42,582 nucleotides of DNA from a virus, in the IMG/VR virus record IMGVR_UViG_3300046491_000074, positions 1 to 42,582 of that record. One strand, 5' to 3'. Shown in pieces: positions 3,767-39,313 of the stretch. The notes below the pieces were generated by a model, which was given only the letters and a program-made list of their open reading frames with translations, ran no database searches and had not been told where the DNA came from. The first letter of the stretch is position 1, and each line of letters starts with the position of its first letter. The translations under genes were made by a program, and so were the position numbers.

Positions 3767-3957
3767 AATTTCCGCTGATTGGAAGGAAAGCCTGTAGCAG
3801 TTACCTTTGCCACAGCTTTGGTTTCTAGGGCACTACTGAGCATGGTCTGCTTCTTATTCAAGAAGTAGGTTAAGCCGTAGTGGGTAAGATGATAGCCGTT
3901 GTGACCCCTAAGGGTTCGGCACATCATCCAGTGCTGTTCTAGCTGTCTGCATATCAT
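3763..3957 (-). CDS. Small hypothetical protein, 64 aa
   Basis: Short basic protein with two cysteines near the N-terminus and a His/Tyr-rich centre; no known domain. The ATG has an AGGAA site and overlaps the stop of the HTH regulator gene by ATGA; the stop overlaps the next start in the same way. The amino acid string is less typical of a folded protein than its neighbours, but the double coupling supports translation. Confidence 0.65.
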   Translation of the reverse strand: MICRQLEQHWMMCRTLRGHNGYHLTHYGLTYFLNKKQTMLSSALETKAVAKVTATGFPSNQRKL

Positions 3958-4355
3958 AAGTTCCTCGTGAGTTCACTGACGGAAGTTTTCATGTATTCTG
4001 CCATATCCTGCAAGTCCGAAAGGCTGATCTCACTAAAGCCTTGCTCGATACCCCGAAGCTTCCTGATCGACCATCCGAGGGCTTCCGCCGCCTGGGTGGT
4101 ATCGTTCAACAGGTTGAAGCGGTAGGCGTAAAGCCTGTTCCCCAGTTTAAGGTGCGCAGGATCGATCACCTTATCCTCAACGGTTGGCTTTGGAGCCTCT
4201 GGGTGTTTCTCAACCTTTAGGCTCGCCAGGATACGCCGGACTTGCGGAATGGAGATACCGAACTTCGTTGCGAGCTTTGGTGCAGGCAACCCAGCTACGC
4301 CGGGTCCTCCTGCATACAGCTTCGCAATCTCCTGGTCTCGATCCGCGTTGTCCAT
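3954..4355 (-). CDS. Two-domain helix-turn-helix regulator
   Basis: 133 aa. An N-terminal HTH of the resolvase/Hin type is suggested by APKLATKFGISIPQVRRIL (about residues 24-43). The C-terminal half reads like a Cro/CI (XRE) domain: TQAAEALGWSIRKLRGIEQG followed by the helix with SLSDLQDMAEYM. Such proteins bind DNA operators. It is the only clear HTH protein in the early region and so a candidate reader of one of the palindrome families at 17.9-30.0 kb; that link is inference. The gene ends in an ATGA overlap with the next gene and starts one base after the dNMP kinase stop. Confidence 0.83.
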   Translation of the reverse strand: MDNADRDQEIAKLYAGGPGVAGLPAPKLATKFGISIPQVRRILASLKVEKHPEAPKPTVEDKVIDPAHLKLGNRLYAYRFNLLNDTTQAAEALGWSIRKLRGIEQGFSEISLSDLQDMAEYMKTSVSELTRNL

Positions 4356-8698: not shown

Positions 8699-8929
8699 TT
8701 AGTAACCGTTCTTTTCAGCCCAGGCCATGACCTCGGCAATGACTTCCTGCGGGACTGCCAGTTCTTCGTCCCGCCCATTGGTCAGCACTCCGGTCGCGTC
8801 AAGTGCCGCTAGTGAGGCGCTGTAGCCACTGCGCCTCAAGGAGAGCCAACCTTGAGTCTCTCCCGGTTCGATCTCCAGGGACGCTTCATACTCGTCATTG
8901 TCCCCAAAGGTCGCGGTGAACGTCTTCAT
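8699..8929 (-). other. Possible internally initiated 76-aa product
   Basis: The ATG at 8929 is in frame with the zinc-finger gene and is preceded by AAGGAAGG with five-base spacing. The product is a complete-looking small acidic domain. Whether it is made separately is inference from the site alone. Confidence 0.45.
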
Positions 8930-9133
8930 TTTTCCTTCCTTTATATTAGGTGGGTTGTGGATAACTTCCTCACGCTTCGGTTTCCCACGGTTCATGCTGG
9001 AGCAGGACCGGGAGCAGTAAGGTTGTCCCTGCCGTGCAAGTTGGCTCTTGCGCACAGGGAACACTACCTCACAACCTGGTCTAGCACAGGTGCAATCGAC
9101 CAGCTTCGGTTCAGAAGACTTGCGCTTGTCCAT
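8699..9133 (-). CDS. Zinc-finger protein with a possible internal second start, 144 aa
   Basis: Residues 14-45 hold the cysteine pattern CTCARPGC and YCSRSC, a likely treble-clef or zinc-ribbon site. A linker (about 51-68) joins it to an acidic beta-rich domain starting MKTFTATFGDNDE. That internal Met (codon 69, 8929) has its own GGAAGG site five bases upstream, better than many real starts here. The gene may therefore make both a full-length zinc-binding protein and a free 76-aa C-terminal domain, or be a fusion of two former genes. A 7-bp hairpin lies 19 bases before the full-length start. Confidence 0.75.
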   Translation of the reverse strand: MDKRKSSEPKLVDCTCARPGCEVVFPVRKSQLARQGQPYCSRSCSSMNRGKPKREEVIHNPPNIKEGKMKTFTATFGDNDEYEASLEIEPGETQGWLSLRRSGYSASLAALDATGVLTNGRDEELAVPQEVIAEVMAWAEKNGY

Positions 9134-9152
9134 TCGAGGCTCCTTATAACTA

Positions 9153-9170
9153 ACGGCCCTTTCGGGCCGT
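9153..9170 (-). promoter_or_regulatory. Leader hairpin before the zinc-finger gene
   Basis: Perfect 7-bp arms ACGGCCC and GGGCCGT enclose a GAAA tetraloop on the minus strand, a very stable RNA hairpin. It sits 19 bases upstream of the start at 9133 and right after the stop of the preceding gene. No T-run follows, so it is more likely an RNA stability or processing element, or a leaky terminator. Confidence 0.6.
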
Positions 9171-9174
9171 CTGT

Positions 9175-9474
9175 TTATGCTGACTTGGTGCGGAGGTGAA
9201 GCTCCGTTGCTACCGGCATTCCCGCCTCATCCAATTTCACCGAGGCAGGGTAGACATGCGGCTTCTTCGGTGGAGGTGGAGGCTCCGTCGCCCGAGCCGC
9301 CTCGTTCATACGGTCCACGAGGTCGAGCCCCTTCTCCGCGCAGTAGTGGTGCAGATCGACCAGCAGGTTGTCCACAGTATCTTCCGTGGGGTTACCCGCC
9401 TGGGTCAGCAGGTTGTTCTTGTAGTGCTTCAGCAGACGCTGGATTCGGACTTTCGCTTTAGCTTCACGGCTCAT
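9175..9474 (-). CDS. Hypothetical protein, 99 aa
   Basis: The first 60 residues look helical and start very basic (AKAKVRIQRLLKHYKNN); a run of prolines (EPPPPPKKP) links to a short C-terminal tail. Basic N-terminus suggests nucleic-acid contact, not shown. ATG with GGAAG. No family recognised. Confidence 0.75.
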   Translation of the reverse strand: MSREAKAKVRIQRLLKHYKNNLLTQAGNPTEDTVDNLLVDLHHYCAEKGLDLVDRMNEAARATEPPPPPKKPHVYPASVKLDEAGMPVATELHLRTKSA

Positions 9475-9511
9475 TTCAGTTACTTCCTTTCTCTTGGGTT
9501 AAACTGTTATT

Positions 9512-9781
9512 TTAGACCAGTTCTGATAGCTTAAACAGGTCAATTATTTTCTGCTCACCTGGAGGTGGATTCTTAGGCCTTAGGTCTCCAAGCAGGGCGT
9601 AAGCCTGCCAACCCTTGGAGTGTATGGGTCGATCTACAGGCCAGCCCCACTGCTTTGATCCGTCCTTCACGGATGTGTACGCCACCCTCGGACCTATAAC
9701 AGTGGTCTCTGTGCCGTTGAGATAGGCCCAATCACCCACCTGATTCTGCCAGATGTAGACTCTTCCGACCTCGTAGCCCAT
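9512..9781 (-). CDS. Hypothetical protein, 89 aa
   Basis: A small beta-rich protein (VGRVYIWQNQVGDWAYLNG; TTVIGPRVAY) that resembles SH3-like barrels in its strand pattern; no family assigned. Start ATG one base after the stop of the upstream gene, so translation is probably coupled. Confidence 0.75.
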   Translation of the reverse strand: MGYEVGRVYIWQNQVGDWAYLNGTETTVIGPRVAYTSVKDGSKQWGWPVDRPIHSKGWQAYALLGDLRPKNPPPGEQKIIDLFKLSELV

Positions 9782-9782
9782 G

Positions 9783-10079
9783 TTACTTCAGCAGCTCCAG
9801 GATCGTGTTCTTGTTGATGCCCAGGGCCTTGACCAGCTCCATGGCCTTCTCCGTCTTGCCATGGTCACGGCCCGTGTGCCGGCCCTGGTGGTACGCCGTC
9901 CAGATGTGCCTCTGAACCTCTTCGTTATCCACCCGCCAATGGTAGACGAAGACTGGTTGAAGTGCTACCCCATGCAGGGGGAGGGAGTTGTTGTAGTAGA
10001 ACTTCGTCTTCTCATCCTCGTGGAGGACGTAGAAGGGGGGCTTGGCAGCAACCTGGGTTGTGGTGTCGGTGGTTTCCAT
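9783..10079 (-). CDS. Hypothetical protein, 98 aa
   Basis: The centre reads FYYNNSLPLHGVALQPVFVY, and the C-terminal 40 residues are helical and basic (RHTGRDHGKTEKAMELVKAL) with a pattern like a small HTH-type or winged-helix arm. No family recognised. ATG at 10079 with AAAGGAAA upstream; a longer frame was not used because it lacks a site. Confidence 0.75.
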   Translation of the reverse strand: METTDTTTQVAAKPPFYVLHEDEKTKFYYNNSLPLHGVALQPVFVYHWRVDNEEVQRHIWTAYHQGRHTGRDHGKTEKAMELVKALGINKNTILELLK

Positions 10080-10093
10080 GATGTTTCCTTTCG

Positions 10094-10447
10094 TTAGTTG
10101 TCGCCGCAAGCTGTTGGAATCAGCTCGTGGCAGTTGTCACAATACAAGGAGACTTCCTCGTAGTTGATGTCCACCTGTTCGATCTTCCATTGCGGATCAC
10201 CGTTCAGGGTCAGTTCCAGGTTGTCGTTGGCACACTTCGGACACAGACAACCGTTATCCTTGGTCACGTAGAACAAGGGGTACATCCCAGGCCAAGCGAC
10301 CTTGTCCCACTCCTTGCGAACAAGGACAGCACCTGGAGGCCAATCCTTGGTGGCCTCCTCGAACGTGAGCCCCTGCCTGCGGTGCTCGATCTGAGGGCAG
10401 GGGTGATTGGGGTAGTTGAACACCCAGGTAAGTTTGGCTTCAGCCAT
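10094..10447 (-). CDS. Zinc-ribbon-like protein, 117 aa
   Basis: Two cysteine pairs, CLCPKC (about residue 70) and YCDNC (about 104), fit a zinc ribbon; the intervening segment is beta-rich. The N-terminal part (FEEATKDWPPGAVLVRKEWD) is unknown. ATG preceded by GGAGGTGG. It overlaps the next upstream 52-aa gene by eight bases. One of several small cysteine-pair proteins in this cassette. Confidence 0.78.
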   Translation of the reverse strand: MAEAKLTWVFNYPNHPCPQIEHRRQGLTFEEATKDWPPGAVLVRKEWDKVAWPGMYPLFYVTKDNGCLCPKCANDNLELTLNGDPQWKIEQVDINYEEVSLYCDNCHELIPTACGDN

Positions 10448-10598
10448 GCTCCACCTCCGGCTCCTTAACCTCTGGTTCCTGAGGCTTGCCGTAGCATACG
10501 GTCATTCTAGCCTCCAGGTTGGGCAAGCTCCGTCCGCAGGTAACGCAGCTACCACCCTTCTCGGTCAACTCCGAGAGATCGTGCATCTGCTCAGCCAT
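10440..10598 (-). CDS. Small cysteine-pair protein, 52 aa
   Basis: A short gene that overlaps both neighbours by eight bases. The product has a CVTCGRSL knuckle and a third cysteine at TVCYG, followed by an acidic Glu/Pro tail. It could be half of a zinc ribbon or form a site by dimerising. The tight overlaps on both sides support translation. Function unknown. Confidence 0.68.
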   Translation of the reverse strand: MAEQMHDLSELTEKGGSCVTCGRSLPNLEARMTVCYGKPQEPEVKEPEVEHG

Positions 10599-11139
10599 GC
10601 TTCACCCCACGAGCTTTGTCCAGGCGCTGGAGCAGGAACTCGATGTGGCTGTGAGCCGTGCCCATGTCTGTGTAGTAGCTGCTCGAAGTGTCGAAACTGC
10701 GGACTTGAGACCGGAGACTCCCCTCCAGGGCATCTGCGTATTCCTCCGGAGTAAGCTCTGACATGCGCTTGTCCTTGACAGCTTCAAAGTCGGGGACCTT
10801 GGTTTGCTCACGCAACCTCTCGATCTCCAGTCTCATCACATCTGCCCAGTGTATCCCCATGGTTTCGGGGGGGAATGTGGATCTTTGTTCGGCTACCCAC
10901 TTCGTCTTCTGTATCCACTCTTCGAAGGCCATGAACGTGCCTGGGATGTTTCTGAAGCCCAGAGCTACTCCGATGTTCACGAATAGGGACTCGACCTCGG
11001 GACGGAAAAAGCTCCACGGGCCTTGTGCGCCACAAGTGATCTTGTAGCTGTCCACCTCACGAACCGCTCCGGCTTGGAGGAGGGTGCAGGTAAAACGTTG
11101 ACGGGTTGGGTCCTGCCAGTTGGTGTAAAGCTCAGGCAT
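10591..11139 (-). CDS. Hypothetical protein, 182 aa
   Basis: An alpha/beta protein; the C-terminal half is helical with an acidic stretch (ELTPEEYADALEG) and ends KARGVKHG. No family recognised. ATG with AAGGAG six bases upstream, one base after the stop of the preceding gene. Confidence 0.82.
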   Translation of the reverse strand: MPELYTNWQDPTRQRFTCTLLQAGAVREVDSYKITCGAQGPWSFFRPEVESLFVNIGVALGFRNIPGTFMAFEEWIQKTKWVAEQRSTFPPETMGIHWADVMRLEIERLREQTKVPDFEAVKDKRMSELTPEEYADALEGSLRSQVRSFDTSSSYYTDMGTAHSHIEFLLQRLDKARGVKHG

Positions 11140-11140
11140 T

Positions 11141-11419
11141 TTATTGCTCCTTAAAATAGTCGGATTCCTTGACCAGGTTACGGCCCAGGAATTTGAGGCT
11201 ATAACTGAAGTCAGTGTGCTCGACGGTAAAGCGGCGAGACACCAGCTCAGCTCCGTTCATTACGATGGCAACTCCTGCTCGTTGCCCAGGCTTGTTCAGG
11301 CTGGGGTTCCAGAAGATGCCCAGGAGCCTTCCTGCTGATTGTCTTGTACAGACATTCAGCATGTGACGATGGAACTCATCGTCCGGGTTGTAGTCTTCGG
11401 CGTATTCAGCCACACTCAT
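11141..11419 (-). CDS. Hypothetical protein, 92 aa
   Basis: Beta-rich centre (AGVAIVMNGAELVSRRFTVEH) with an acidic helix at the N-terminus. I take the ATG at 11419 because GGAGAG lies seven bases before it and it overlaps the upstream stop by one base; an ATG five codons earlier has no site. No family recognised. Confidence 0.76.
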   Translation of the reverse strand: MSVAEYAEDYNPDDEFHRHMLNVCTRQSAGRLLGIFWNPSLNKPGQRAGVAIVMNGAELVSRRFTVEHTDFSYSLKFLGRNLVKESDYFKEQ

Positions 11420-17399: not shown

Positions 17400-17687
17400 T
17401 TAGTCCTCCACGGGAAAGTCGGTGATCAACACCGGCTGGTGAACATCGCCCTCGAACACGACGCGGAACCGCTCACCGATCTTGTAGGTAGCAACGAGCA
17501 GCAATTCGCCGTATTCCTCATCGTATGCCATCGCTACATCAGCGCCGTACTTATTCAGCATCATGTTACGGGTGATGTTCGGCAGCACTTCTATGCGGTT
17601 GCTACCGTAAGTGACCTTGTACGGGACCTTGTGCTTACCTGGGCGGTAATACTCGGTCTTGATGGTGCGCTTGGTTTCCCCGCTCAT
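17400..17687 (-). CDS. Hypothetical protein, 95 aa
   Basis: Beta-rich small domain (RTIKTEYYRPGKHKVPYKV; GELLLVATYKIGERFRVVFE) resembling an OB- or SH3-like barrel by strand pattern. No family recognised. Weak own site but ATGA-coupled to the upstream gene. Confidence 0.76.
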   Translation of the reverse strand: MSGETKRTIKTEYYRPGKHKVPYKVTYGSNRIEVLPNITRNMMLNKYGADVAMAYDEEYGELLLVATYKIGERFRVVFEGDVHQPVLITDFPVED

Positions 17688-17887
17688 TGGTCGTGCTCTT
17701 TGAGGAACTCATAGGCTTCATGTTGCATACGTTCCACCTCAGGGGAACGGAGGGGAACCCGTGGAAGTTTTGGGTCGAACATGCGATCCCGCATTTCCGT
17801 GGTAAAGCTATTGCGGGAGCCGGAAACTACCCGCAGATGGAAGATGGCTTGTTTGAACAGTTTTTCATAGTCAGGTTTGTTCGACAT
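17684..17887 (-). CDS. Small hypothetical protein, 67 aa
   Basis: Mostly helical and charged; ends with a helix (EVERMQHEAYEFLKEH). First gene of a sub-cluster: no gene lies directly upstream, its leader carries a TCCC-GGGA palindrome 16 bases before the ATG, and GGAG lies just before the start. Function unknown. Confidence 0.76.
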   Translation of the reverse strand: MSNKPDYEKLFKQAIFHLRVVSGSRNSFTTEMRDRMFDPKLPRVPLRSPEVERMQHEAYEFLKEHDQ

Positions 17888-17903: not shown

Positions 17904-17916
17904 TCCCGACTCGGGA
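17904..17916. promoter_or_regulatory. TCCC-GGGA palindrome copy a
   Basis: Perfect 13-bp palindrome TCCCGACTCGGGA, 16 bases upstream of the gene starting at 17887. Flanks match copies b and c (GTTTRT before, ACGTT after, then GGTTGG). Confidence 0.7.
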
Positions 17917-17962
17917 CGTTAAGGTTGGTTGATGGTTGTTTCGTACTCTAGTGAGCACGCAA

Positions 17963-17984
17963 CAGCCCCCGTAGACAGGGGCTG
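17963..17984 (-). promoter_or_regulatory. Hairpin between gene blocks
   Basis: Arms CAGCCCC and GGGGCTG with an 8-base loop, lying just after the stop of the 78-aa gene and before the palindrome leader of the next one. A weak terminator or processing site; no T-run. Confidence 0.45.
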
Positions 17985-17992
17985 GCACTTGC

Positions 17993-18229
17993 TTACTCCT
18001 CGATCACTGCATATGCCGCAGGGAGGTTTGGCACGCTGTCGGCTGCGTCTTCCAAAACCCCTTGGTCGATTTGCTTCGACCAGCCTTTAGGGACCTCGAA
18101 GTCATCATCACAAAAGAGCCACCTGTTGTCCCGGCCATAAAACACCTGGGTAACTTCCGGGTGGAAGCTGCGCACCTCTTCGACAGCTTTAACTACAGCT
18201 CCCGGGGTGCCTTCTGTCATCTTCAACAT
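17993..18229 (-). CDS. Small hypothetical protein, 78 aa
   Basis: A compact acidic protein (GAVVKAVEEVRSFHPEVTQV; WLFCDDDFEVPKGW). No family recognised. ATG at 18229 with AAGGAG; the longer frame upstream lacks a site. It ends a block; a hairpin and palindrome follow. Confidence 0.75.
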   Translation of the reverse strand: MLKMTEGTPGAVVKAVEEVRSFHPEVTQVFYGRDNRWLFCDDDFEVPKGWSKQIDQGVLEDAADSVPNLPAAYAVIEE

Positions 18230-18245
18230 AATACGACTCCTTGTG

Positions 18246-18401
18246 TTATGCGTCAGGGTGTACGCTCTCGTACACCTCTTTCGCCAGTTGGATGAACCTC
18301 TGCCCTTGTTCAAGGGTGAGGCCGTTGTGTTCAGCGTAGGCCTTGACCGTGAGGTAGTTGTTCACGTAGTCGAGGTAAGCGTCGATCAGGGTTTGGCGCA
18401 T
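18246..18401 (-). CDS. Small helical protein, 51 aa
   Basis: A short gene with AAGGAG six bases before its ATG. The product (MRQTLIDAYLDYVNNYLTVK..., ending YESVHPDA) is amphipathic helix followed by a helix-turn-helix-like second half (AEHNGLTLEQGQRFIQLAK). Small proteins of this type are common in phage early operons with no known function. Confidence 0.72.
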   Translation of the reverse strand: MRQTLIDAYLDYVNNYLTVKAYAEHNGLTLEQGQRFIQLAKEVYESVHPDA

Positions 18402-18404
18402 GTG

Positions 18405-18599
18405 TTACTCCTTGATTGGCCCGAAGATTTCCAGGTGGTGGAACTTGGCCTTATCCTCTTCAGTCCAGTTACCATTGATGAGTTGGACAAGGGCTTGATG
18501 CCTGGTTTCGGCGTATTCGACAGCACGGCCTGCTGGTTGGAACAGCGGGGCACCGTACTTGTCGTACGCGACGAACGCATAGGACTTTTTCTCACTCAT
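18405..18599 (-). CDS. Small hypothetical protein, 64 aa
   Basis: An alpha/beta domain with AYDKYGAPLFQPAGRAVEYA and HHLEIFGPI. No family recognised. ATG at 18599, nine bases after AAGGAG, with ATGA overlap of the upstream stop. Confidence 0.74.
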   Translation of the reverse strand: MSEKKSYAFVAYDKYGAPLFQPAGRAVEYAETRHQALVQLINGNWTEEDKAKFHHLEIFGPIKE

Positions 18600-18829
18600 T
18601 TCACCCGCTCCTTGAACTCGTTGTTCAGCTCGGTTGCGGCGGCGTGCCATGCGTCGGGTCTGATGAAGTGGTTCGGGCCGAATGCTTCCCGCACCTCCTC
18701 CAGCGGTTTTTCAGCTACGGCCTTTGCCATCTTCATCAACGAGTCCATGATGAATATTTGCATAACCACACCCGTCTTGGAGAAGTTCATCAGCCGGACC
18801 AGCATTTCCTCGTTTGTTTCTCGTGCCAT
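18596..18829 (-). CDS. Small helical protein, 77 aa
   Basis: Helical with a Met-rich middle (VVMQIFIMDSLMKMAKAVAE). The hydrophobic stretch may be amphipathic rather than membrane spanning. No family recognised. AGGAG before the ATG. Confidence 0.75.
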   Translation of the reverse strand: MARETNEEMLVRLMNFSKTGVVMQIFIMDSLMKMAKAVAEKPLEEVREAFGPNHFIRPDAWHAAATELNNEFKERVK

Positions 18830-18839
18830 GTTGTTCTCC

Positions 18840-19166
18840 TTAATGTAATGGCTGGCCCGTGTCCCGGACCATGCCCACGATCCCGTCCATGATCATGGGG
18901 TCGTTGGGTTCACTGAACTGGCAGTCAGCCAGTATCTTTTCCACGATGGCATCCAGTTCGACTTTGCACGCCTCGTAGATATACTTTCCTGCCAGGTGGG
19001 TTTCACCCCTTTTCTTAGCGAGCCTCGCCGCTACCGCTGCACGGGCCTGGACCGCCTCGTCGGCCACGGTGATATTGCCTTGGAACAGATCGTACAGGAG
19101 CCCTTCAAGAGCCAGGGAATGTGCCAACTTCTGTTCGGCAGGCGTGAGCTGGTCAAAGGTCTTCAT
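18840..19166 (-). CDS. Hypothetical helical protein, 108 aa
   Basis: Starts MKTFDQLTPAEQKLAHSLAL, an N-terminal pattern seen often in small phage proteins, followed by an Ala/Arg-rich helical stretch and an acidic end. No function assigned. Weak own site; ATGA-coupled to the 194-aa gene upstream. Confidence 0.78.
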   Translation of the reverse strand: MKTFDQLTPAEQKLAHSLALEGLLYDLFQGNITVADEAVQARAAVAARLAKKRGETHLAGKYIYEACKVELDAIVEKILADCQFSEPNDPMIMDGIVGMVRDTGQPLH

Positions 19167-19747
19167 ACCGGCACCATGATGAAGTAGGGGGTGGTTAGAT
19201 CGTTCCTCGCGAGATACGCCATGGAGCGAGCCCCCGAAGCGTAGTATTCACCCTTCTTCGGGGGACGAGCTGGGTTCCCATCCCATTTAGCGTGAATCTT
19301 CCCTGGAGGGCGCTCCCCCATGGCGATGTACAGGAGCTTGAAACCAAATCTCGGTTTGGGGTGCGATGCAGCCTCAGGCAGCGAACTTACAGGCATGGGA
19401 TTGCCTGGGAAGCTGACATCTCCAGCTTGGAGCAGGCAGTTGATCAGGATGTTGCCGATGCCCGAGGAGCCGATCTGCTTGATTTCCGAGGCGATGACCA
19501 TGCGTGCTGCGAAGTGCGCGCTGAACTGGAAGTTCGAGGCGCTCATCAGGTTGCAGATGCGGCTGCTGTCGGCGTCGAGGTCACGGGTGAACGTGACCCA
19601 AATAAAGTACAAGAAGTTGGCGGGGGTGACATAGGTAGTTCCTTGCAAGCGACCCCCTGTCGTATGCTGGTTGAGGAAATGGCGTATATCCTGTATATCC
19701 TTCTCGGTCCCTTTTGTGGCGATTCGGACGGTGTATGCGTTCTTCAT
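19163..19747 (-). CDS. Hypothetical protein, 194 aa
   Basis: Beta strands in the first half (YTVRIATKGTEKDIQD; FLYFIWVTFTRDLD), a helical middle and a Pro/Lys-rich tail. No family recognised. ATG with AAGGAG; a TCCC-GGGA palindrome lies 15 bases upstream. Confidence 0.82.
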   Translation of the reverse strand: MKNAYTVRIATKGTEKDIQDIRHFLNQHTTGGRLQGTTYVTPANFLYFIWVTFTRDLDADSSRICNLMSASNFQFSAHFAARMVIASEIKQIGSSGIGNILINCLLQAGDVSFPGNPMPVSSLPEAASHPKPRFGFKLLYIAMGERPPGKIHAKWDGNPARPPKKGEYYASGARSMAYLARNDLTTPYFIMVPV

Positions 19748-19762
19748 TTACTTCTCCTTGTT

Positions 19763-19775
19763 TGTCCCGACTAGG
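19763..19775. promoter_or_regulatory. TCCC-GGGA palindrome copy b
   Basis: TCCCGACTAGGGA, 15 bases before the start at 19747. Outer halves are conserved; inner bases differ from copy a. The downstream flank (ACGTTTATGGTTGGATGAT, after a short insertion) resembles the flank of copy a. Confidence 0.65.
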
Positions 19776-19810
19776 GAGAGTGGGGACGTTTATGGTTGGA
19801 TGATTGCCTT

Positions 19811-20017
19811 CTAACGCCCTTCTGCGAGCAGAATTTCGTGTTTCTTCTGCATCCACTTGAGCGCTGCCTCGCGTACCTCGGCGGCTGTCTTGTTCTTGGC
19901 TGGCATGATGTAGCCGAACATCTCGATGGTGCAGGCGCTGATCGTGCCTTTGAACTCGGACTTCATGGTGTCGGTCCAGAGCGTGACCTTGGCTTCGTTG
20001 GATTTCTTGGTTGCCAT
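19811..20017 (-). CDS. Small hypothetical protein, 68 aa
   Basis: Opens basic (MATKKSNEAKVTLWTDTMKS), then a beta hairpin and a helix rich in Lys. No family recognised. GGGG is eight bases before the ATG. Confidence 0.74.
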   Translation of the reverse strand: MATKKSNEAKVTLWTDTMKSEFKGTISACTIEMFGYIMPAKNKTAAEVREAALKWMQKKHEILLAEGR

Positions 20018-20022
20018 ATTCT

Positions 20023-20535
20023 TTATTCCCCTTTCATGTTCTTAAGTGCGTCCCTCAACTGCTCATCAGTGAGGTCCTCTTGTGGTATCCACTCGCGTAC
20101 CTGATCAAACGTCACATCCAAGACACGCAACATGCGCTTGTCCAGCTCGTAGTCGATGAGGTCAACCCAATCAGCCAATCCTGATTGGATCATTTCCTCC
20201 CGTTTCTCGTGCCCGGTCGTGAGCAGTTGACCGTCCATGTCCGTTGGCAGGTAGTGGAACGGGTTACAGCACCCATCGGTGGTGCAACGACGCGCTGCAC
20301 TTGGCAGGCCCAGGTACGAGGCCACGACGAAGGGCAGCTTATGGACACTATTCTGCCACTTGATCACGGGAGTCCCATCCAGGTTTGCACCGTGGAAGAT
20401 GTGACAGGTGGCGAAGGCATCAGGTGTCTTCGCCAATCTGGCGATCAGGGCGTACAGTTCCAGTGCTGGCGCTGGTGCGGTGATCTGTGTCGCCCACTTT
20501 GGTGGGCGACCCCGGGGTTTGCGTTCAGTTGCCAT
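20023..20535 (-). CDS. AT-hook protein with HNH-like cysteine/histidine region, 170 aa
   Basis: Residues 5-13 contain the AT-hook core KPRGRPPKW, which grips the minor groove of AT-rich DNA. The centre has TCHIFHG and RRCTTDGCCNPFHYLPTD, like the C-x-NP-x-H part of phage HNH endonucleases, but the first catalytic His of the fold is not clear. It is either a degenerate homing-type nuclease or a DNA-binding regulator using that zinc scaffold. ATG at 20535; GGAG is ten bases upstream. Overlaps the next gene upstream by 11 bases. Confidence 0.78.
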   Translation of the reverse strand: MATERKPRGRPPKWATQITAPAPALELYALIARLAKTPDAFATCHIFHGANLDGTPVIKWQNSVHKLPFVVASYLGLPSAARRCTTDGCCNPFHYLPTDMDGQLLTTGHEKREEMIQSGLADWVDLIDYELDKRMLRVLDVTFDQVREWIPQEDLTDEQLRDALKNMKGE

Positions 20536-20857
20536 GGTTTGGAAGCTCCCCGGTTTCAACGAAGTGCTGGAGCAGCGGCAGAAGGGCCTTAACCTGCTCC
20601 CGCGTCAAGTGCATCCTGGTCTTCATCAAAACCTGTTTTGGAATAGGGTAAGGAACCCATCCCGTGGATGCTTCAGGTTCGAGGCCCAGCCTTTGGGCCT
20701 CACTAGCGGGAATCTTCGGGTCTGCATCATCAGGCCCGAACCAGATGGCATCTTCCGTGGCAAGACTGCTCTTCTGAACCGAGCAGCCTGCACCGTAGAG
20801 GTCCTTGAACTCCACCACGGTGAAACCTCGTGAAGTAGTTGTCCAGTTGAAGTTCAT
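20525..20857 (-). CDS. Conserved phage protein, 110 aa
   Basis: The pattern RGFTVVEFKDLYGAGCSVQK, SSLATEDAIWFG and a C-terminal TRMHLTREQVKALLP is one I recognise from many phage genomes, always without function. A helical C-terminus ends HFVETGELP. ATG at 20857 with ATGA overlap of the upstream stop; a longer upstream frame is unlikely. Confidence 0.83.
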   Translation of the reverse strand: MNFNWTTTSRGFTVVEFKDLYGAGCSVQKSSLATEDAIWFGPDDADPKIPASEAQRLGLEPEASTGWVPYPIPKQVLMKTRMHLTREQVKALLPLLQHFVETGELPNHGN

Positions 20858-21540
20858 TGCCCAGACTCCTTGATCCACGTTGGGTAGAACTCGCGTACTG
20901 CGAGGAATTCAAGGAAATTGTTCATGAAACCCACGCCTAAGTCCTGCTCCGAGTTCTTGAACTCAAACAGACCTGTGGGACTCAACGTCTGCGCCCATGC
21001 GGCCTTCAACTCCTTCAACTCCTCCAGGGTCCAGACAACTTCTACAGGCTTTTCCATGCGTTTGGACAACTCGGACTCGTGCATGGTTATGTAGTCGGCG
21101 TACATCCAGCCGTCATGGGTCCGAACTTGGCAGTGTTGGAACCTGGCCGGGATGGGTTCACCTTCTCGGCCCACGATCACGCCGATGTGATAGCGCCAGA
21201 TGTCGCTATCGTGATAGACGTACGACACGATCATGGGCTTGACCATGGGTGGGACCCGGATAGGGTCACGGCCCGGTTGCGCTTCGGTGTACAGGAACTT
21301 CTGCCCTACCTCGAACCGGGCGGGGGGTGGGGGAACGTAGACGGACTCCACGCGGAAGTCGGTCTCGTTGTAGACCAGACCTGCTTCGTCAAACTCCTTG
21401 AAGAGGAAGAGTCGCAGGTAAGACTCACCAACCTCCTTCTCCTCGAAGTGGAGGGCGTTCTCAGGCCGGGTGGGTTGGATGTATTGCATCCATTTTCCGT
21501 CGATAGCTTGTTGGATTTCCCATTTGCAGGTTACTGACAT
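20854..21540 (-). CDS. Hypothetical protein, 228 aa
   Basis: Mixed alpha/beta with a beta-rich middle (ARFEVGQKFLYTEAQPGRDP; VRTHDGWMYADYITMHESEL). The segment YIGTE..TxVWTLEELKELKAAW is helical. No family recognised. ATG at 21540 with AAAGGAG; a longer upstream frame lacks a site. Confidence 0.8.
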   Translation of the reverse strand: MSVTCKWEIQQAIDGKWMQYIQPTRPENALHFEEKEVGESYLRLFLFKEFDEAGLVYNETDFRVESVYVPPPPARFEVGQKFLYTEAQPGRDPIRVPPMVKPMIVSYVYHDSDIWRYHIGVIVGREGEPIPARFQHCQVRTHDGWMYADYITMHESELSKRMEKPVEVVWTLEELKELKAAWAQTLSPTGLFEFKNSEQDLGVGFMNNFLEFLAVREFYPTWIKESGQ

Positions 21541-21553
21541 GATTTGATCTCCT

Positions 21554-21697
21554 TTAAATGCCACAGATGGCGTAGAAAAAGTCTTTCGGGGACAGACCTG
21601 GATACTGGCAAACCTCGGCATCCCACATGACGATGATGTGGAACTTGAACCAGTTGTGATAGGCGGTCAAGTCCTCGTATTGGTCTTTGATGAACAT
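21554..21697 (-). CDS. Small hypothetical protein, 47 aa
   Basis: A short gene sitting exactly between its neighbours, 14 bases after the upstream stop. Product is rich in Tyr, Phe, Trp and His (MFIKDQYEDLTAYHNWFKFH). AAGGG lies about ten bases before the ATG. No function assigned. Confidence 0.66.
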   Translation of the reverse strand: MFIKDQYEDLTAYHNWFKFHIIVMWDAEVCQYPGLSPKDFFYAICGI

Positions 21698-21711
21698 GAG
21701 CTTTAACCCTT

Positions 21712-22200
21712 CTAAGTGCCCGTTGCCTTGCCCACTTCTTTGACGGAAACATCGTAAAGCCAGGTCTCGATTTCGGCATTTGTGCCCGAAGTGAAAGTGC
21801 CGTTGAGCATTGCCACGTTGATGGCTTCCCTCGCCTTGATCTTGATCGCGTCAGGACTTGCACCCAAGGGTTTAAGACAGATGCGAAGACCAAGGTTCAG
21901 GGTTAAGAACTCGGCGTGGGAACCGCTATCGTTGGGGATACTTGCCACGATACTTGTCACGCGCTCCTTCTCGAAGTGGTGCTTGCGCAAGATGAACCGC
22001 GCCGTGGCTCGGATACGGTGGCTGGGATGGTTGTCCGAAAGTTGATTCAAGGCCTGAGTGTCACCTTTCATGCAAAGGTCGTAGATGGACTCCAGCGCGG
22101 GAATGTCCAAAGGGGACAAGTCACCGTTGGCCTCCATCAGCAAAATGTGGACAAAATTGCAAAGCAGGGGCGTGGTGGGTGGGACCAAGGAGAGGGCCAT
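21712..22200 (-). CDS. Hypothetical helical protein, 162 aa
   Basis: Helical repeats (DIPALESIYDLCMKGDTQAL; HPSHRIRATARFILRKHHFE) suggest an alpha-helical scaffold, possibly ARM- or HEAT-like, which I cannot confirm. ATG with CGGAGG five bases upstream. Confidence 0.8.
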   Translation of the reverse strand: MALSLVPPTTPLLCNFVHILLMEANGDLSPLDIPALESIYDLCMKGDTQALNQLSDNHPSHRIRATARFILRKHHFEKERVTSIVASIPNDSGSHAEFLTLNLGLRICLKPLGASPDAIKIKAREAINVAMLNGTFTSGTNAEIETWLYDVSVKEVGKATGT

Positions 22201-22260
22201 AGAGCCTCCGAAATAGAAAAGGGTACGTGGATAGCGGGTCGGTCGCGGGATGGGCGTGGT

Positions 22261-22275
22261 GCCCCGATTTGGGGC
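22261..22275 (-). promoter_or_regulatory. Short GC hairpin between genes
   Basis: Arms GCCCC and GGGGC with a 5-base loop, just past the stop of the 129-aa gene and before the 162-aa gene. No T-run; may be an RNA processing or weak terminator element. Confidence 0.35.
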
Positions 22276-22287
22276 CTTAGCGCCGAT

Positions 22288-22677
22288 TTACGGAACCTTG
22301 GCGTTCGCCCCGAGGAGCGAAACGAAGGCCAATGCCCAGGCTGGGGAGAGTTTGGGCGGGGCCTCGTTGGGTGAATACCTGCACTCTTGCACCCAGGTAT
22401 TGAGCAAGTGCATGGTGGAATCTGGCAACTGGGTCGGGAGCCGTAGCCCGTACGGGACCTGCTTGTTGCACTTGTCCATCAACTCCTGTGCGAGGTCCAT
22501 GCAGAAGTTGGACTGTGCGAAATCGAACTGGGTGTAATGCTTGAGCTTGTCTTCGACCCATTCAATGAGTTCATCAACAAGATTAGAACTTACTTTATCG
22601 AAGTTTTCGTGCTTGAGAATCTTGAGCAAAACCTTGATGAGTGCATGCTCCTTGGTCTTGGCGAGGGAAACGGACAT
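22288..22677 (-). CDS. Hypothetical helical protein, 129 aa
   Basis: Helical, Leu/Lys/Glu-rich (EHALIKVLLKILKHENFDKV) with a helix-loop pattern, then an Asp/Asn/Pro-rich C-terminus. It is the paralog-like size of the 162-aa neighbour but shares no clear motif. ATG with AGGAG ten bases upstream. Confidence 0.78.
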   Translation of the reverse strand: MSVSLAKTKEHALIKVLLKILKHENFDKVSSNLVDELIEWVEDKLKHYTQFDFAQSNFCMDLAQELMDKCNKQVPYGLRLPTQLPDSTMHLLNTWVQECRYSPNEAPPKLSPAWALAFVSLLGANAKVP

Positions 22678-22704
22678 GATAAGTGGCTCCTAAAAGATGA
22701 GAGA

Positions 22705-22956
22705 TTATACCAGTTGGGTTTGTGTGATGATACTGAGCATTTCTTCGAAGTGAGGCTTGGCATAAGCCAAGGCCTCGGCAGAGGTCTCGAAGGTTGAGCA
22801 CGTTGACAGGCATGGTTGATTAGGCAAGTTGCGGATCAACCGTAGCGTGGTCCTGTCCGGGGCTGAGGAGGCACACTCCTTGAACTCGGTAACTTGCACC
22901 AGGAGCGTGTGGGTAGGTGTGGCGTATTGGAACGCAAGATGGGTGATGGTTTTCAT
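22705..22956 (-). CDS. Hypothetical protein, 83 aa
   Basis: Starts with strands (THLAFQYATPTHTLLVQVTE), then CLSTCSTFETSAEALAY and a helix. The sequence has few charged residues and three to four cysteines. No family recognised. Weak own site; follows a 28-aa ORF by four bases. Confidence 0.7.
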   Translation of the reverse strand: MKTITHLAFQYATPTHTLLVQVTEFKECASSAPDRTTLRLIRNLPNQPCLSTCSTFETSAEALAYAKPHFEEMLSIITQTQLV

Positions 22957-22960
22957 GGTG

Positions 22961-23047
22961 TTATCCCAGGTGAGTGATCAGGTAAGGGATCGTCGGCAGG
23001 AAGAGTGCGACGATGATGATCAAGAGGTAGGCGAGGGCGCGGTTCAT
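22961..23047 (-). CDS. Tiny membrane peptide, 28 aa
   Basis: MNRALAYLLIIIVALFLPTI and a short tail: one transmembrane helix with a basic start, in the size range of phage small inner-membrane peptides. Its ATG lies one base after the stop of the preceding gene and it lacks a strong own site, so translation would depend on re-initiation. The clean fit between the neighbours supports it, but the call is uncertain. Confidence 0.5.
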   Translation of the reverse strand: MNRALAYLLIIIVALFLPTIPYLITHLG

Positions 23048-23048
23048 C

Positions 23049-23279
23049 TTATTTCGTGAGTTGGTCGAGGGCATCATAGGCTTGAGCAATGATGGTTTTG
23101 ACATGCGCCCGGACCTCGGGCAGTTGGTTCCACAAGACGGGGGAAGGTAGACCTCGCTGTGTGAGGTAGAAGTCAGGTCCAGGGATACGCTTCAGGAACA
23201 GCTCGTTGTGCTTGATGATTCTCTCGTAGAAGTCGTAATTGATTTGTGCAGGGCTGCGGCAAGTGGTGACGTTGCTCAT
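23049..23279 (-). CDS. Small hypothetical protein, 76 aa
   Basis: Helical, with NYDFYERIIKHNELFLKRIP and HVKTIIAQAYDALDQLTK at the ends. First gene of the main leftward cassette after the gene-free stretch. ATG at 23279 with CGGAGC and a TCCC-GGGA palindrome 14 bases upstream. No family recognised. Confidence 0.77.
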   Translation of the reverse strand: MSNVTTCRSPAQINYDFYERIIKHNELFLKRIPGPDFYLTQRGLPSPVLWNQLPEVRAHVKTIIAQAYDALDQLTK

Positions 23280-23293
23280 TTTAGCTCCGTTTA

Positions 23294-23306
23294 TCCCGAG
23301 TCGGGA
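23294..23306. promoter_or_regulatory. TCCC-GGGA palindrome copy c
   Basis: TCCCGAGTCGGGA, a perfect palindrome around a central G, 14 bases before the start at 23279. Flanks resemble copies a and b. Confidence 0.68.
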
Positions 23307-23330
23307 TGTTTGGGTTGTAGGGTGTAGCAA

Positions 23331-23357
23331 ATAGCGAGTAGCGAGTAGCGAGTAGCT
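23331..23357. repeat. Tandem 7-mer array (gtagcga)
   Basis: Four near-identical 7-base units of the form (a/g)tagcga in a row, right after the leader of the 76-aa gene. Purpose unknown; may be an iteron-like cluster or replication slippage. Confidence 0.7.
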
Positions 23358-23369
23358 GAGCTAACTATA
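23356..23369 (+). repeat. 14-bp inverted repeat, left arm
   Basis: CTGAGCTAACTATA; its exact reverse complement lies at 23450-23463, with 80 bases between. The pair would pair into a long hairpin or mark the ends of a small mobile element. Confidence 0.75.
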
Positions 23370-23449
23370 TGTGGTATCCAATCTATTCAGCAAACACCCA
23401 CTGGATTTAGGTGCCCAAAACTCGGGGTCTCCGGGTCTGCCTTATTACT

Positions 23450-23463
23450 TATAGTTAGCTCAG
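23450..23463 (-). repeat. 14-bp inverted repeat, right arm
   Basis: TATAGTTAGCTCAG on the plus strand, perfect reverse complement of 23356-23369. Confidence 0.75.
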
Positions 23464-23485
23464 GTACTGGCACTTGTTTAGGTTC

Positions 23486-23590
23486 AGGACCAGAAGCGGG
23501 ACAATACCCAGAACCAGTAGCGGGACCATGCCCAGGACCAGTAGCGGGACCAGTAGCGGGACCAGTAGCGAGACCATGCCCAGGACCAGA
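23486..23590. repeat. 12-mer tandem array (accagtagcggg)
   Basis: Four copies at 23513, 23537, 23549 and 23561, with spacings of 24, 12 and 12 bases, inside a longer region of related units (gaccatgcccagga twice). The exact 12-base phasing hints at a protein-binding cluster. Confidence 0.65.
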
Positions 23591-23648
23591 GTTGTGTGGA
23601 AAAACAACAACGGTGAAAACAAAATATTTTCGCCTATTTTTTAATCAA

Positions 23649-23732
23649 TTAGTTAGGAACGACCCGTTCCGATGGACGTTTTTCTCCTCTGTTTAGAAAA
23701 TTTTGAATGATACTATCATCGAAAAACATCAT
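23649..23732 (-). CDS. Possible 27-aa leader peptide
   Basis: ATG ATG preceded by GGAG with six-base spacing, an excellent site, opening a 27-codon ORF (start MMFFDDSIIQNFLNRGEK). The first ATGATANTATCAT palindrome lies inside its 5' part. It may be a short peptide or leader controlled by the same operator. No other evidence of translation. Confidence 0.3.
   Translation of the reverse strand: MMFFDDSIIQNFLNRGEKRPSERVVPN
23707..23719. promoter_or_regulatory. ATGATANTATCAT palindrome copy 1
   Basis: ATGATACTATCAT, a 13-bp perfect palindrome about one central base; also part of the possible 27-aa ORF. Confidence 0.65.
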
Positions 23733-24013
23733 AAATTTCTCCACATCAAGACTCTTATCTTTTTATTAATTACCCTTTTCCGTGATGAATCCAGAAAATA
23801 AAGACCTAGCTAACGAAATACAATGGAATTCGCAAGCGAATCAAGCACTTACTGGTCCCGCGCCTGCGCCCGGTCCTTACTCCTGGTTAAAAAAGACGAC
23901 CGCCGGTTACAAAACCAGCCCTCGCCCATCGCCTCGGACCTCCTTCGGACCCTTTCCGGTCTCCTTCGGATCACCTTAGCTCCGTGCCAACTAATTAGCT
24001 CCTCATCAACGCG

Positions 24014-24026
24014 ATGATAGTATCAT
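24014..24026. promoter_or_regulatory. ATGATANTATCAT palindrome copy 2
   Basis: The 13-bp core extends with GCG and CGC to a 19-bp perfect palindrome at 24011-24029. Its centre is 35 bp from copy 3. Confidence 0.7.
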
Positions 24027-24048
24027 CGCATTTCTCCCGAGCAACCCG

Positions 24049-24061
24049 ATGATACTATCAT
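24049..24061. promoter_or_regulatory. ATGATANTATCAT palindrome copy 3
   Basis: ATGATACTATCAT, flanked by C and T. Together with copy 2 it forms a pair of sites. Confidence 0.68.
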
Positions 24062-24092
24062 TGGAAAAGCACCAGTTTGGTGTATTCCCTTT

Positions 24093-24105
24093 TCCCGAGT
24101 AGGGA
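24093..24105. promoter_or_regulatory. TCCC-GGGA palindrome copy g
   Basis: TCCCGAGTAGGGA with T-rich flanks, in the gene-free stretch, not next to a gene start. Confidence 0.6.
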
Positions 24106-24235
24106 TATTTTTCTTGCCTTCCAGACATCTTGACGCCCCTGGCCCTTTCTGCTAGGCCTTAGGCTCTCTTTTTACGCGACTTGCAAAGTTCCACGGCCCC
24201 TGGAACCTGGAAAAGTGTCCCGGTTTCCAAGGGTC

Positions 24236-24254
24236 GCGCTTCAAAAAGAAGCGC
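24236..24254. promoter_or_regulatory. Hairpin in a structured non-coding region
   Basis: Perfect 7-bp arms GCGCTTC and GAAGCGC with loop AAAAA. Close by, 24189-24205 has TTCCA and TGGAA arms. The region 24110-24310 is dense in such structures and has no gene; a small RNA is possible but not shown. Confidence 0.4.
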
Positions 24255-24366
24255 CTAGGGCCTGCTGCATGGCCCTTGTGTATGCAAATGCGCAGGTTTA
24301 TAAGCCCGAAAAAGGCATATAAACATGGACATTCAGACAGGCCCAGGCGCTTGCCCAGGCCCACTA

Positions 24367-24389
24367 GGGTGTCCCTACTCGGGACACCC
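24367..24389. terminator. Strong hairpin after the 303-aa gene, carrying palindrome copy f
   Basis: Nine-base arms GGGTGTCCC and GGGACACCC with loop TACTC, just past the stop of the gene at 24397. The central TCCCTACTCGGGA (24372-24384) is a family member. No T-run on the minus strand, so termination would be inefficient; it may be a dual operator/hairpin. Confidence 0.5.
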
Positions 24390-24396
24390 GTTCAGG

Positions 24397-25308
24397 TTAG
24401 GCCGCTTGCTTCAGGCTAGCGCGCTGGGCCTTGCGGATCGCCTTCGCCATGGCGACCAGTTCCTTAGCTGCCGCCTCCAGTGCGTCAGGCGACGGGTTGA
24501 GCGCCGTGAACAGCACGGGTTTGCCGTGCTCGTCAACAGTGATGTTGCACAGCAACGAACCCTGTTGCTTGCGCTCCTGCTCCTTGCGTTGCTTTTCGGC
24601 CTCCTCCGCCGCTGCCTTGATCCGCAGTTCTTCTGCCTCCTTCGCAAGGCGTTCGTTCTGTGCCTTGAGGAGTTCCGCGCGCTTGTCGGCCTCCTCCTTG
24701 GCCTTGCGCTCCTCCTCTGCCTTCGCCTCCGCTGCCTTGCGCTCCTCTTCCGCCTTCGCTGCCTGCGCCTCTGCCTGAGTCAGGTTGTTCTGGGCATCGG
24801 CCAGTTTCTGGTCGGCTTGCTGGGTTTGCTCCTTGAGGGCCGCTTGTGCCTGCGCCTCTGCCAGTGCTGCCGCTGCCTTGTCCAGTGCTGCCTGTTCCGC
24901 AGCGCGCTTGTCAGCGTGGCTCTGCTCGCCCTTGCAGAAGGCGATGAGGTCGTCAATCTTGGCCGTGTAGGTCGTTGCCTTGATCTGGTCCTTGATGAAC
25001 TCCGCGAATGCCAGCACGTTGTCTTGAGTGTGCCCACCCTCATACGAGGCCAGCTTCTCCCCGAATTTCATCTGGAACTGATAGGCCAGCGTGCCAGCGT
25101 TCTGGACAGTCTTGGCCGAGATGCTGTAACCCGATGCCTCTTCGACCTCACGAGCGAACTGCGCCATCTTGAACTTCTTGCCGTCCTTCGGCTTGACGGC
25201 ACGTTCCAGCGTTTCGAAGGCGATGGACGAGGCGAAGTTCAGTTGACCAACGGTGACGCTTGCGCCGAATGCGAGGGTGATTGCCGATACGGTTGCTTTG
25301 GTTTCCAT
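24397..25308 (-). CDS. Long coiled-coil protein, 303 aa
   Basis: The first 110 residues form a small globular domain (AITLAFGASVTVGQLNFASS; KKFKMAQFAREVEEASGYSI). From about residue 135 to 250 there is an Ala/Glu/Lys-rich coiled coil with repeated (A/E)EEERKAKE-like heptads, then a short C-terminal domain (NITVDEHGKPVLFTAL). It could be a structural or DNA-organising protein; nothing is proven. ATG with AAGGAG; a TCCC-GGGA palindrome is 21 bases upstream. The gene is isolated between two non-coding regions, so it is probably its own transcription unit. Confidence 0.82.
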   Translation of the reverse strand: METKATVSAITLAFGASVTVGQLNFASSIAFETLERAVKPKDGKKFKMAQFAREVEEASGYSISAKTVQNAGTLAYQFQMKFGEKLASYEGGHTQDNVLAFAEFIKDQIKATTYTAKIDDLIAFCKGEQSHADKRAAEQAALDKAAAALAEAQAQAALKEQTQQADQKLADAQNNLTQAEAQAAKAEEERKAAEAKAEEERKAKEEADKRAELLKAQNERLAKEAEELRIKAAAEEAEKQRKEQERKQQGSLLCNITVDEHGKPVLFTALNPSPDALEAAAKELVAMAKAIRKAQRASLKQAA

Positions 25309-25329
25309 GGTGTAGCTCCTTGTCGTTTG

Positions 25330-25342
25330 TCCCTAGTCGGGA
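25330..25342. promoter_or_regulatory. TCCC-GGGA palindrome copy d
   Basis: TCCCTAGTCGGGA, 21 bases before the start at 25308, with flanks like those of copies a-c. Confidence 0.62.
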
Positions 25343-25356
25343 CGTTTGGGAAAGTG

Positions 25357-25369
25357 TCCCTAGTAGGGA
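25357..25369. promoter_or_regulatory. TCCC-GGGA palindrome copy e
   Basis: TCCCTAGTAGGGA, perfect apart from the centre base, 27 bp beyond copy d. Confidence 0.62.
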
Positions 25370-29936: not shown

Positions 29937-29949
29937 ATGATAGTATCAT
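29937..29949. promoter_or_regulatory. ATGATANTATCAT palindrome copy 4
   Basis: ATGATAGTATCAT, a perfect palindrome about the centre base, lying between the leftward -10 and the rightward promoter of the terminase operon, well placed to control both. Same 13-mer as the three copies in 23.7-24.1 kb. Confidence 0.72.
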
Positions 29950-38687: not shown

Positions 38688-39116
38688 ATGTTAGTTCGAA
38701 ACCTTCACGCTTCAGTCCTCAGGTTCTGCTCCGACTTTGCAGAAACCCATGGGCTTACCTCAGTCAACTTTGATGCTCATGCTGACGACTCATCCCTACC
38801 CCCAGGAGATGTTGTTGGAATGTCTGGGTTATCCTGGGACGTTGACGACGAGATTCTTTCGGTGAACGTTCTGTTCGGAATTACTACCCAGGAGGATACC
38901 AATCTTTTCAAGCTGATTGAGAAGATGGATTTGCTGTTTGATCTGCTGCTACCGACGAAGCTGATACCGGCTTACGATGCCGATACGGGGGAGAGGATTG
39001 GAGAGTTCGTGGTAAGGAATGGAACCAAGGCCTTACCCGTTCAGGGGACAGAAGCCAGGCCGCTTCAGTTCGTGATGGTTGGCCTGGTTTCTACGGTGAC
39101 TTTCAACCAGAATTAA
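38688..39116 (+). CDS. Tail terminator candidate, 142 aa
   Basis: 142 aa, the typical length and position for the tail terminator protein that caps the tail tube. Strands and helices alternate (DEILSVNVLFGITTQEDTNL; LQFVMVGLVSTVTFNQN at the end). Call is by position and length. AGGAG precedes the ATG at 38688. Ends by overlapping the convergent RHH gene by four bases. Confidence 0.7.
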   Translation: MLVRNLHASVLRFCSDFAETHGLTSVNFDAHADDSSLPPGDVVGMSGLSWDVDDEILSVNVLFGITTQEDTNLFKLIEKMDLLFDLLLPTKLIPAYDADTGERIGEFVVRNGTKALPVQGTEARPLQFVMVGLVSTVTFNQN

Positions 39117-39313
39117 AGCTCAGTAACGGCACCTTCACGAATAGCCTTTGCTTCTCGTACCTTGTGGAGGTCTAGAGCCTCCTCCAGGAGTACGATGATC
39201 TCCTGGGCACGCTTACGGCGGGTTCGTTTTTCCCGCTCATCGATCTGGTCTACCAACTTCCTGGGAAGTCGAACGGTGAAGGATACTAGGTCCTTGCCAG
39301 TGGGGGTTGTCAT
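39113..39313 (-). CDS. Arc-like ribbon-helix-helix regulator, opposite strand
   Basis: 66 aa. VSFTVRLPRKLVDQIDERE followed by RKRAQEIIVLLEEAL is the strand-helix-helix of MetJ/Arc-type DNA-binding dimers. It lies reversed within the tail genes, between tail terminator and tail tube, with its own promoter overlapping that of the tube gene. It is therefore a moron-like insertion and a candidate repressor of the tube promoter or of a phage operator. ATG with AAGGC. Confidence 0.85.
   Translation of the reverse strand: MTTPTGKDLVSFTVRLPRKLVDQIDEREKRTRRKRAQEIIVLLEEALDLHKVREAKAIREGAVTEL

Follow-up and report, generated by a model that had tools for sequence, protein, structure and literature searches.

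Arc and Mnt form one local switch in phage P22, and the promoter hairpins of N4-type virion RNA polymerases go together with a phage-type RNA polymerase gene and a fixed hairpin-to-start distance. Many short repressor sites, spread genome-wide and mostly away from promoters, are described for the cluster A mycobacteriophages (L5, Bxb1), where the stoperator consensus varies by phage and follows genome and repressor distance (PMC6550527). In the Bacillus phage SPbeta, a 15-bp repeated element (SPBRE) was first recognized in silico and later proved to be where a single master repressor, MrpR, binds (PMC10516654). Here we describe a 13-bp palindrome that occurs seven times outside genes in the virus contig IMGVR_UViG_3300046491_000074 (42,582 bases, analyzed over its whole length and referred to below as the window), together with palindromes of other sequence in its relatives. 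We propose that the copies serve as DNA operators in a single phage regulon, with an Arc/Mnt-like ribbon-helix-helix (RHH) protein encoded at 39113-39313 as the most likely binder and repression of early genes as the outcome, a proposal for and against which we consider the chances evenly balanced.

The sites of this phage clade are like the L5 stoperators in being multiple, dispersed and short, with a phage-specific consensus. Unlike the L5 sites, which are asymmetric and mostly oriented with transcription, they are palindromic and mostly symmetric (the exception being the centre base in JWF, 2-1 and G011), and they lie mainly in a leftward early-type region rather than being spread genome-wide. 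The L5 sites are, in addition, bound by an immunity repressor with a helix-turn-helix (HTH) domain in phages that make lysogens, and the bound repressor halts transcription elongation there. The palindromes thus work like stoperators but, because they are palindromic, are not members of the stoperator family. As with SPBRE, the repeated element was recognized computationally; MrpR differs from the candidate binders of the clade in having a tyrosine-recombinase fold, and its peaks lie in prophage promoter regions. The leading candidate family matches an Arc-like profile, and its predicted fold resembles AmrZ, the structure of which was, by its title, solved on an 18-bp site, and Arc. In contrast to the single local switch of Arc and Mnt, one protein would here serve several dispersed sites. 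With regard to the N4-type arrangement, the phage-type RNA polymerase profile PF00940 was unmatched in 12 records (with a control that was silent too, so that this is not a safe negative), and the distance from site to ATG varies, the ATG not being the transcript start.

The paper on phage Lumi contains none of the terms palindrom, promoter, operator or inverted repeat, and motif once, in a reference (PMC9959647); in the TCUP2199 paper, palindrom, promoter and operator are all absent (PMC9228384). No title or abstract describing such sites in this clade was found in the part of the literature covered, which does not extend to the JWF and Seuss genome papers. Dispersed phage operators are already known, and what would be new is the extent to which the operator word is rewritten and the probable Arc-type reader.

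Identification of the repeated palindrome

The strict motif TCCCKASTMGGGA matched the window seven times, compared with no match in 100 dinucleotide shuffles. By our own gene list, in which the non-coding share is 3720 of 39352 bp, all seven copies are non-coding; the initial annotation is thereby confirmed in its count and its placement of the copies outside genes. A looser motif, TCCCNANTNGGGA, gave nine matches against 0.05 expected. The two additional matches, at 7769 and 15981, lie in genes, have C at position 5 and violate the K/M rule (K = G/T, M = A/C), and are probably due to chance. The palindrome repeat itself is real and not a product of chance. Its copies are as follows.

17904..17916, minus strand: copy a, 16 nt ahead of the ATG of the leftward gene 17684-17887
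19765..19777, minus strand: copy b, 17 nt ahead of the ATG of gene 19163-19747, with an extra TCCC immediately upstream
23294..23306, minus strand: copy c, 14 nt ahead of a leftward ATG
24093..24105, no strand: copy d, within 23331-24396, a long stretch without a called gene
24372..24384, no strand: copy e, directly downstream of gene 24397-25308
25330..25342, minus strand: copy f, 21 nt ahead of the ATG of gene 24397-25308
25357..25369, minus strand: copy g, beginning 27 bp beyond the first base of copy f

Six of the starts first annotated were borne out, the second copy beginning at 19765 and not at 19763, and the four copies placed 14-21 bases upstream of a gene start do end 14, 16, 17 and 21 nt before a minus-strand ATG. 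Inner bases that do not pair (G facing A, or T facing C) had been assigned to copies b, d, f and g and are actually in b, d, e and f. An outer purine-pyrimidine rule, R...Y, holds in part: it fails at 19765 (G...G) and 24093 (T...T), and the copy at 17904 has a non-pairing A...C. All half-sites read TCCC(G/T)A, and G and T occur at the two halves in all four combinations, as in an operator bound by a dimer and unlike a paired stem. The 27-bp tandem spacing of copies f and g recurs in a pair of sites in Lumi, although the sequences are unrelated.

Palindrome families in related phages

By its terminase and primase the window is closest to Xylophilus phage Lumi, Achromobacter phages JWF and 2-1, and Caulobacter phage Seuss. 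Because the records of these nearest relatives are 81.5-85 kb long, with direct terminal repeats of 1.5-2.3 kb, the window probably covers about half of a genome. A leftward block of small genes in the window matches the leftward blocks of all four phages by position, and from its being a block of small genes we infer that these are early genes. No integrase is annotated in any of the four, and JWF is termed lysogenic-like in one paper (PMC9228384). Searches from which the window's own or very near genome records may have been excluded gave no near-match at the DNA level among phages. Within IMG/VR, a single-protein search with the window primase gave no relative, and none of 33 stretches that fitted the pattern of the 303-aa gene was confirmed as one; no contig with the extended palindrome site was found.

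The related records that were fetched numbered 24 of 30 (all but G020, G024, G025, G027, G029 and G030), eight of them (G003, G005, G008, G011, G014, G021, G023 and G026) being examined minus their final 84 to 2292 bases, and 80 of 99 related loci were examined. The motif TCCCNANTNGGGA was found in 0/30 related records; among the other 50 related loci it occurs once each in two short ones, L080 and L124. A GTTTRTCCC... match is present in 40 loci, where TCCCNANTNGGGA occurs once each in 38, twice in L018 and eight times in L035, the single occurrences probably being chance; GATGATASTATCATC, with at least 119 stretches in IMG/VR, is too generic. The literal motif is nearly private to the window, and the layout is shared by most relatives examined: among 23 related genomes for which 70 kb or more was available, 18 carry a repeated palindrome of their own. 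The expectation that copies would recur at gene starts of relatives thus fails for the literal sequence and holds for families of other sequence.

The families were obtained from a blind inverted-repeat count, with a Markov control of one simulation per genome (four in another run). If a genome had at least four copies of one 6-bp-arm palindrome, it was counted as carrying a family (17 genomes, of which G002 and G012 barely reach the threshold); the eighteenth, G007, has 13 copies with 5-bp arms. No family was seen in EAb13, G015, G021, G026 and G028. The 18 genomes are not independent, one family being common to JWF, 2-1 and G011, a second to G006 and G019, and a third to G012 and G018. The principal families are listed by phage or record, palindrome and copy number.

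Lumi: TTACT-N5-AGTAA, 17 copies
JWF: GTTCGTNACGAAC, 10 copies
Achromobacter phage 2-1: family common to JWF, 9 copies
G011: family common to JWF, 10 copies
Seuss: TTTACC-N3-GGTAAA, 5 copies
G001: TCCCG-N4-CGGGA, 16 copies
G003: CTGCCAANTTGGCAG, 11 copies
G004: GTTCA-N3-TGAAC, 11 copies
G006: GTGCAG-N2-CTGCAC, 8 copies
G007: TCCCT-N3-AGGGA, 13 copies
G008: TTTAACNGTTAAA, 9 copies
G018: TGCGACNGTCGCA, 10 copies
G022: TCCCCGGCCGGGGA, 9 copies
Pseudoalteromonas phage KB12-38 (L055, L056): GGGTAA-N2-TTACCC, ten copies

In eight unrelated control records, the top 6-bp-arm count was at most 3 in seven and 7 in G032; none of the five controls proven by their terminase to be tailed phages (G033-G037) exceeded 3. 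Counts with 5-bp arms alone discriminate poorly, because the unrelated records G032 and G033 reach 7 and 8. The palindrome of G032 is GTTAAC-N3-GTTAAC, in seven copies, and such families are therefore not confined to the clade.

Position of the sites relative to gene starts

Gene starts, promoters, arm variants and terminators were counted in 16 genomes chosen for having a family (G002, G022, G023 and KB12-38 being excluded), a gene start being an ATG that opens a frame of 30 codons no more than 35 nt downstream of the site. Such a frame in the early sense follows 92 of the 156 sites, compared with 46.3 expected from random places in the same region, and one in the opposite sense follows 30. 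The excess is carried by JWF (8/10), Seuss (5/5), G007 (12/13), G008 (7/9), Lumi (8/17) and others. Examined by hand against its annotation, JWF has eight of ten sites 13-25 nt from a start, one that is intragenic and one 72 nt off, and some Lumi sites lie within annotated genes. The distance from site to ATG ranges from 1 to 35 nt, and 11 of the 13 sites of G007 are exactly 3 nt ahead of an ATG. The palindromes of KB12-38 often stand some 30-40 nt ahead of an ATG and are then followed by an A-rich stretch. The first suggestion of a shared regulatory signal for the early genes is thus supported by the families that the relatives have of their own.

At 12 of the 156 sites a terminator-like structure stands no more than 60 nt upstream, where 2.9 would be predicted from other gene starts, and some sites may therefore open transcription units. 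Since these structures leave scant room for a normal promoter, they also speak for an otherwise improbable explanation, that the palindrome is itself the promoter core for a phage-specific initiation factor or polymerase. That explanation would be in keeping with the little sigma-70-like signal seen overall, although 31-44% of sites fall in the top tenth in Seuss, G006, G007 and G008, and a -10-like hexamer stands at one common place in three of the nine sites of G008. It is opposed by the varying distance to the ATG, by conservation that is mostly symmetric, and by the searches of 12 records, in which sigma region 4 was unmatched while its controls were positive; the polymerase profile was unmatched as well, with its control silent.

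DNA site or RNA hairpin

The initial annotation had allowed for either a protein operator or a small RNA hairpin. The relatives support the operator, and the hairpin is weakened by unpaired bases, by a shortfall of G-U pairs and by the predicted energies. Conservation stops at the palindrome or a few bases past it and is mostly symmetric, with exceptions in G007 and KB12-38. Three sites of G012 read AGTTCGACCGTCGCACT, with an identical unequal half-site in identical orientation every time. Copies with a single changed base are scarce, 24 within spans (in JWF, 2-1, Seuss, G012, Lumi and G007 the span takes in almost all of the genome) and four elsewhere, and the 24 comprise one G-U, four A-C and 19 other combinations. 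Among the 14 single-mismatch copies near an ATG, none is G-U, two are A-C and 12 are other, where about 2.3 G-U would be expected by chance; this is modest evidence, from few cases, that leans against an RNA stem.

A leader hairpin controlling the translation or processing of early messages is accordingly a very improbable account of the family as a whole, though not one without points in its favour. The sites adjoin ribosome-binding sites; 11 of the 13 in G007 have the 3-nt spacing to the ATG; Shine-Dalgarno-like bases lie within the palindrome in G007 and most Seuss copies; a sense-strand A is favoured at the centre in JWF, 2-1 and G011; and all seven window copies fold as short hairpins, with a median of -7.7 kcal/mol. 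The sites of these five relatives may have a translational role. Median hairpin energies nevertheless range from 0 in G008 to -14.6 kcal/mol in G001, four of the seven window copies have unpaired inner bases, and within one phage it is the arm sequence that is fixed and not merely the pairing.

Candidate binding proteins

Two proteins of the window were considered as binders of the proposed operators.

39113..39313, minus strand: Arc/Mnt-like RHH protein, 66 aa, oriented opposite to the structural genes; leading candidate
3954..4355, minus strand: 133-aa protein with HTH matches; rival candidate

The RHH gene stands on the minus strand amid plus-strand structural genes and is found at the same place in JWF, 2-1, Lumi and Seuss, being unannotated in Lumi and Seuss. 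Each of the 12 RHH proteins supplied matched the Arc family profile PF03869 at E up to 0.1; by itself, the window protein scored 18.9 bits, under the curated cut-off of 20.4. A search of the PDB with the family profile gave AmrZ (6e-5), Mnt (3e-4) and Arc (0.02), and the predicted model (pLDDT 84.5) has AmrZ and then Arc as its top fold matches, none at E < 0.001. By these sequence comparisons the protein can be placed in an Arc-like family.

Of the 18 genomes with a palindrome family, 16 encode the RHH protein. The HTH protein is present in 13 of them, or 14 when a weak match in G023 (E 4e-5) is counted, and was not found in G003, G007, G022 or KB12-38 (in G022 only a match at E 0.001). Because G003, G007 and G022 have palindromes (11, 13 and 9 copies) without the clade's HTH, the RHH protein is slightly ahead on presence; since the HTH protein was matched in 0/5 of the family-less genomes at E up to 0.001 (with a match at 0.008 in G028), the HTH protein is slightly ahead on absence. 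Taking the two patterns together, RHH appears to be the slightly better fit of the two candidates. When the frames of JWF were screened by phyletic pattern, both proteins came out among the top (HTH in 12/14; RHH in 14/14 plus two of six others), in a list where many rows resemble shadow frames and a KTSC-like protein equals the HTH score.

The same operator regulon might instead be read by the HTH protein or by another, unrecognized phage protein, which we regard as rather unlikely. In its favour, the N-terminal recognition helix of the HTH protein tracks the operator class when judged by eye and post hoc (SE with GTTC, VP/IP with GTGC and TCCC). The terminase of G004 is 79-82% identical to those of the GTGC phages, yet its palindrome is of the GTTC type, and its RHH (44-50%) and HTH (46-57%) proteins alike diverge from those of its GTGC sisters. 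In Mantel tests across 10 lineages, similarity of the palindrome correlated with that of terminase at 0.48, of RHH at 0.28 and of HTH at 0.36; the tests did not tell the two candidates apart, and whole-protein similarity of the HTH protein explains nothing past kinship. Two features of the RHH proteins were seen by eye and post hoc and are not claimed as results: K or Q adjoining the helix-B Asn in the TCCC phages (window, G001, G007), and an RN-x-S strand where the half-site starts with TTT (Seuss, G008, G022).

Proposed operator regulon

Under the reading that we prefer, a symmetric phage-encoded protein, most likely the Arc/Mnt-type RHH protein, would bind both TCCC(G/T)A half-sites and so occupy the starts of early genes. 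Once the protein accumulates, early transcription would be turned down, most likely because initiation or the path of RNA polymerase is blocked. The repressive effect is a guess by analogy with the L5 stoperators and the SPbeta repeated element. More tentatively, and with the balance somewhat against it, the whole clade may run its early genes through one Arc-type regulator, the operator word being rewritten by lineage (TCCC, TTACT, GTTCGT, GTGCAG, CTGCCAA, TTTAAC and others) while symmetry and gene-start position are kept; this would amount to about ten operator specificities within a single small protein family, with no recognizable sigma-70 promoter at a fixed place.

Several observations weigh against this regulon. 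In the window itself, only four of nine sites are near a gene start by a crude measure that expects 2.7, and there is little or no gene-start excess in G003 (3/11), G012 (1/4) and G018 (4/10). Sigma-70-like promoters are barely enriched, with 16% of the 156 sites in the top tenth and no common place, so that the sites do not look like ordinary operators overlapping a promoter. The sense-strand centre prefers A in JWF (7/10), 2-1 (7/9) and G011 (8/10), which a purely symmetric site would not show. As to the binder, G023 and KB12-38 have palindrome families without the clade's RHH, a divergent RHH is present in three of the five family-less genomes (G015, G021 and G026), the RHH gene of the window is itself without a palindrome copy, and the partial Mantel correlation given terminase is near 0 for RHH and HTH alike.

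Other repeats

Further repeats were noted in the window and in other records. A second 13-bp palindrome, ATGATA-S-TATCAT, lies at 23707-23719, 24014-24026, 24049-24061 and 29937-29949 of the window, three copies being in the gene-free stretch and one about 105 bp ahead of the terminase gene; it also precedes the terminase in L057 and G001, and it may govern the late operon. Short tandem repeats in the same gene-free stretch, at 23330-23360 (gcgagta) and 23480-23600 (accagtagcgg), may, judging from Lumi, lie close to the genome end. A second family, CTATCNGATAG, has seven copies in G004, four in G005, three in G006 and five in G019, and is retained in G004 although the first family of that genome differs from its sisters'. 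In G023, a record that lacks the RHH protein, GTGAC-N3-GTCAC sites lie at 50299-50667, and three of these belong to 61-bp tandem repeats. The phage contig L035 carries TCCCAASTTGGGA eight times in 3 kb (8424-11292; whole record G039), some copies lying in open frames where they read SQVGT or PQVGT, and it gave no match to the clade's RHH or HTH.

Implications

If the proposal is true, a regulatory principle would be available for phages of this clade, in which most early-region genes are annotated as hypothetical proteins, and candidate early transcription units would be marked by sequence alone. Exclusion or immunity groups between phages would be predicted, and the matched protein-operator pairs would allow a direct test of the ribbon-helix-helix recognition code.

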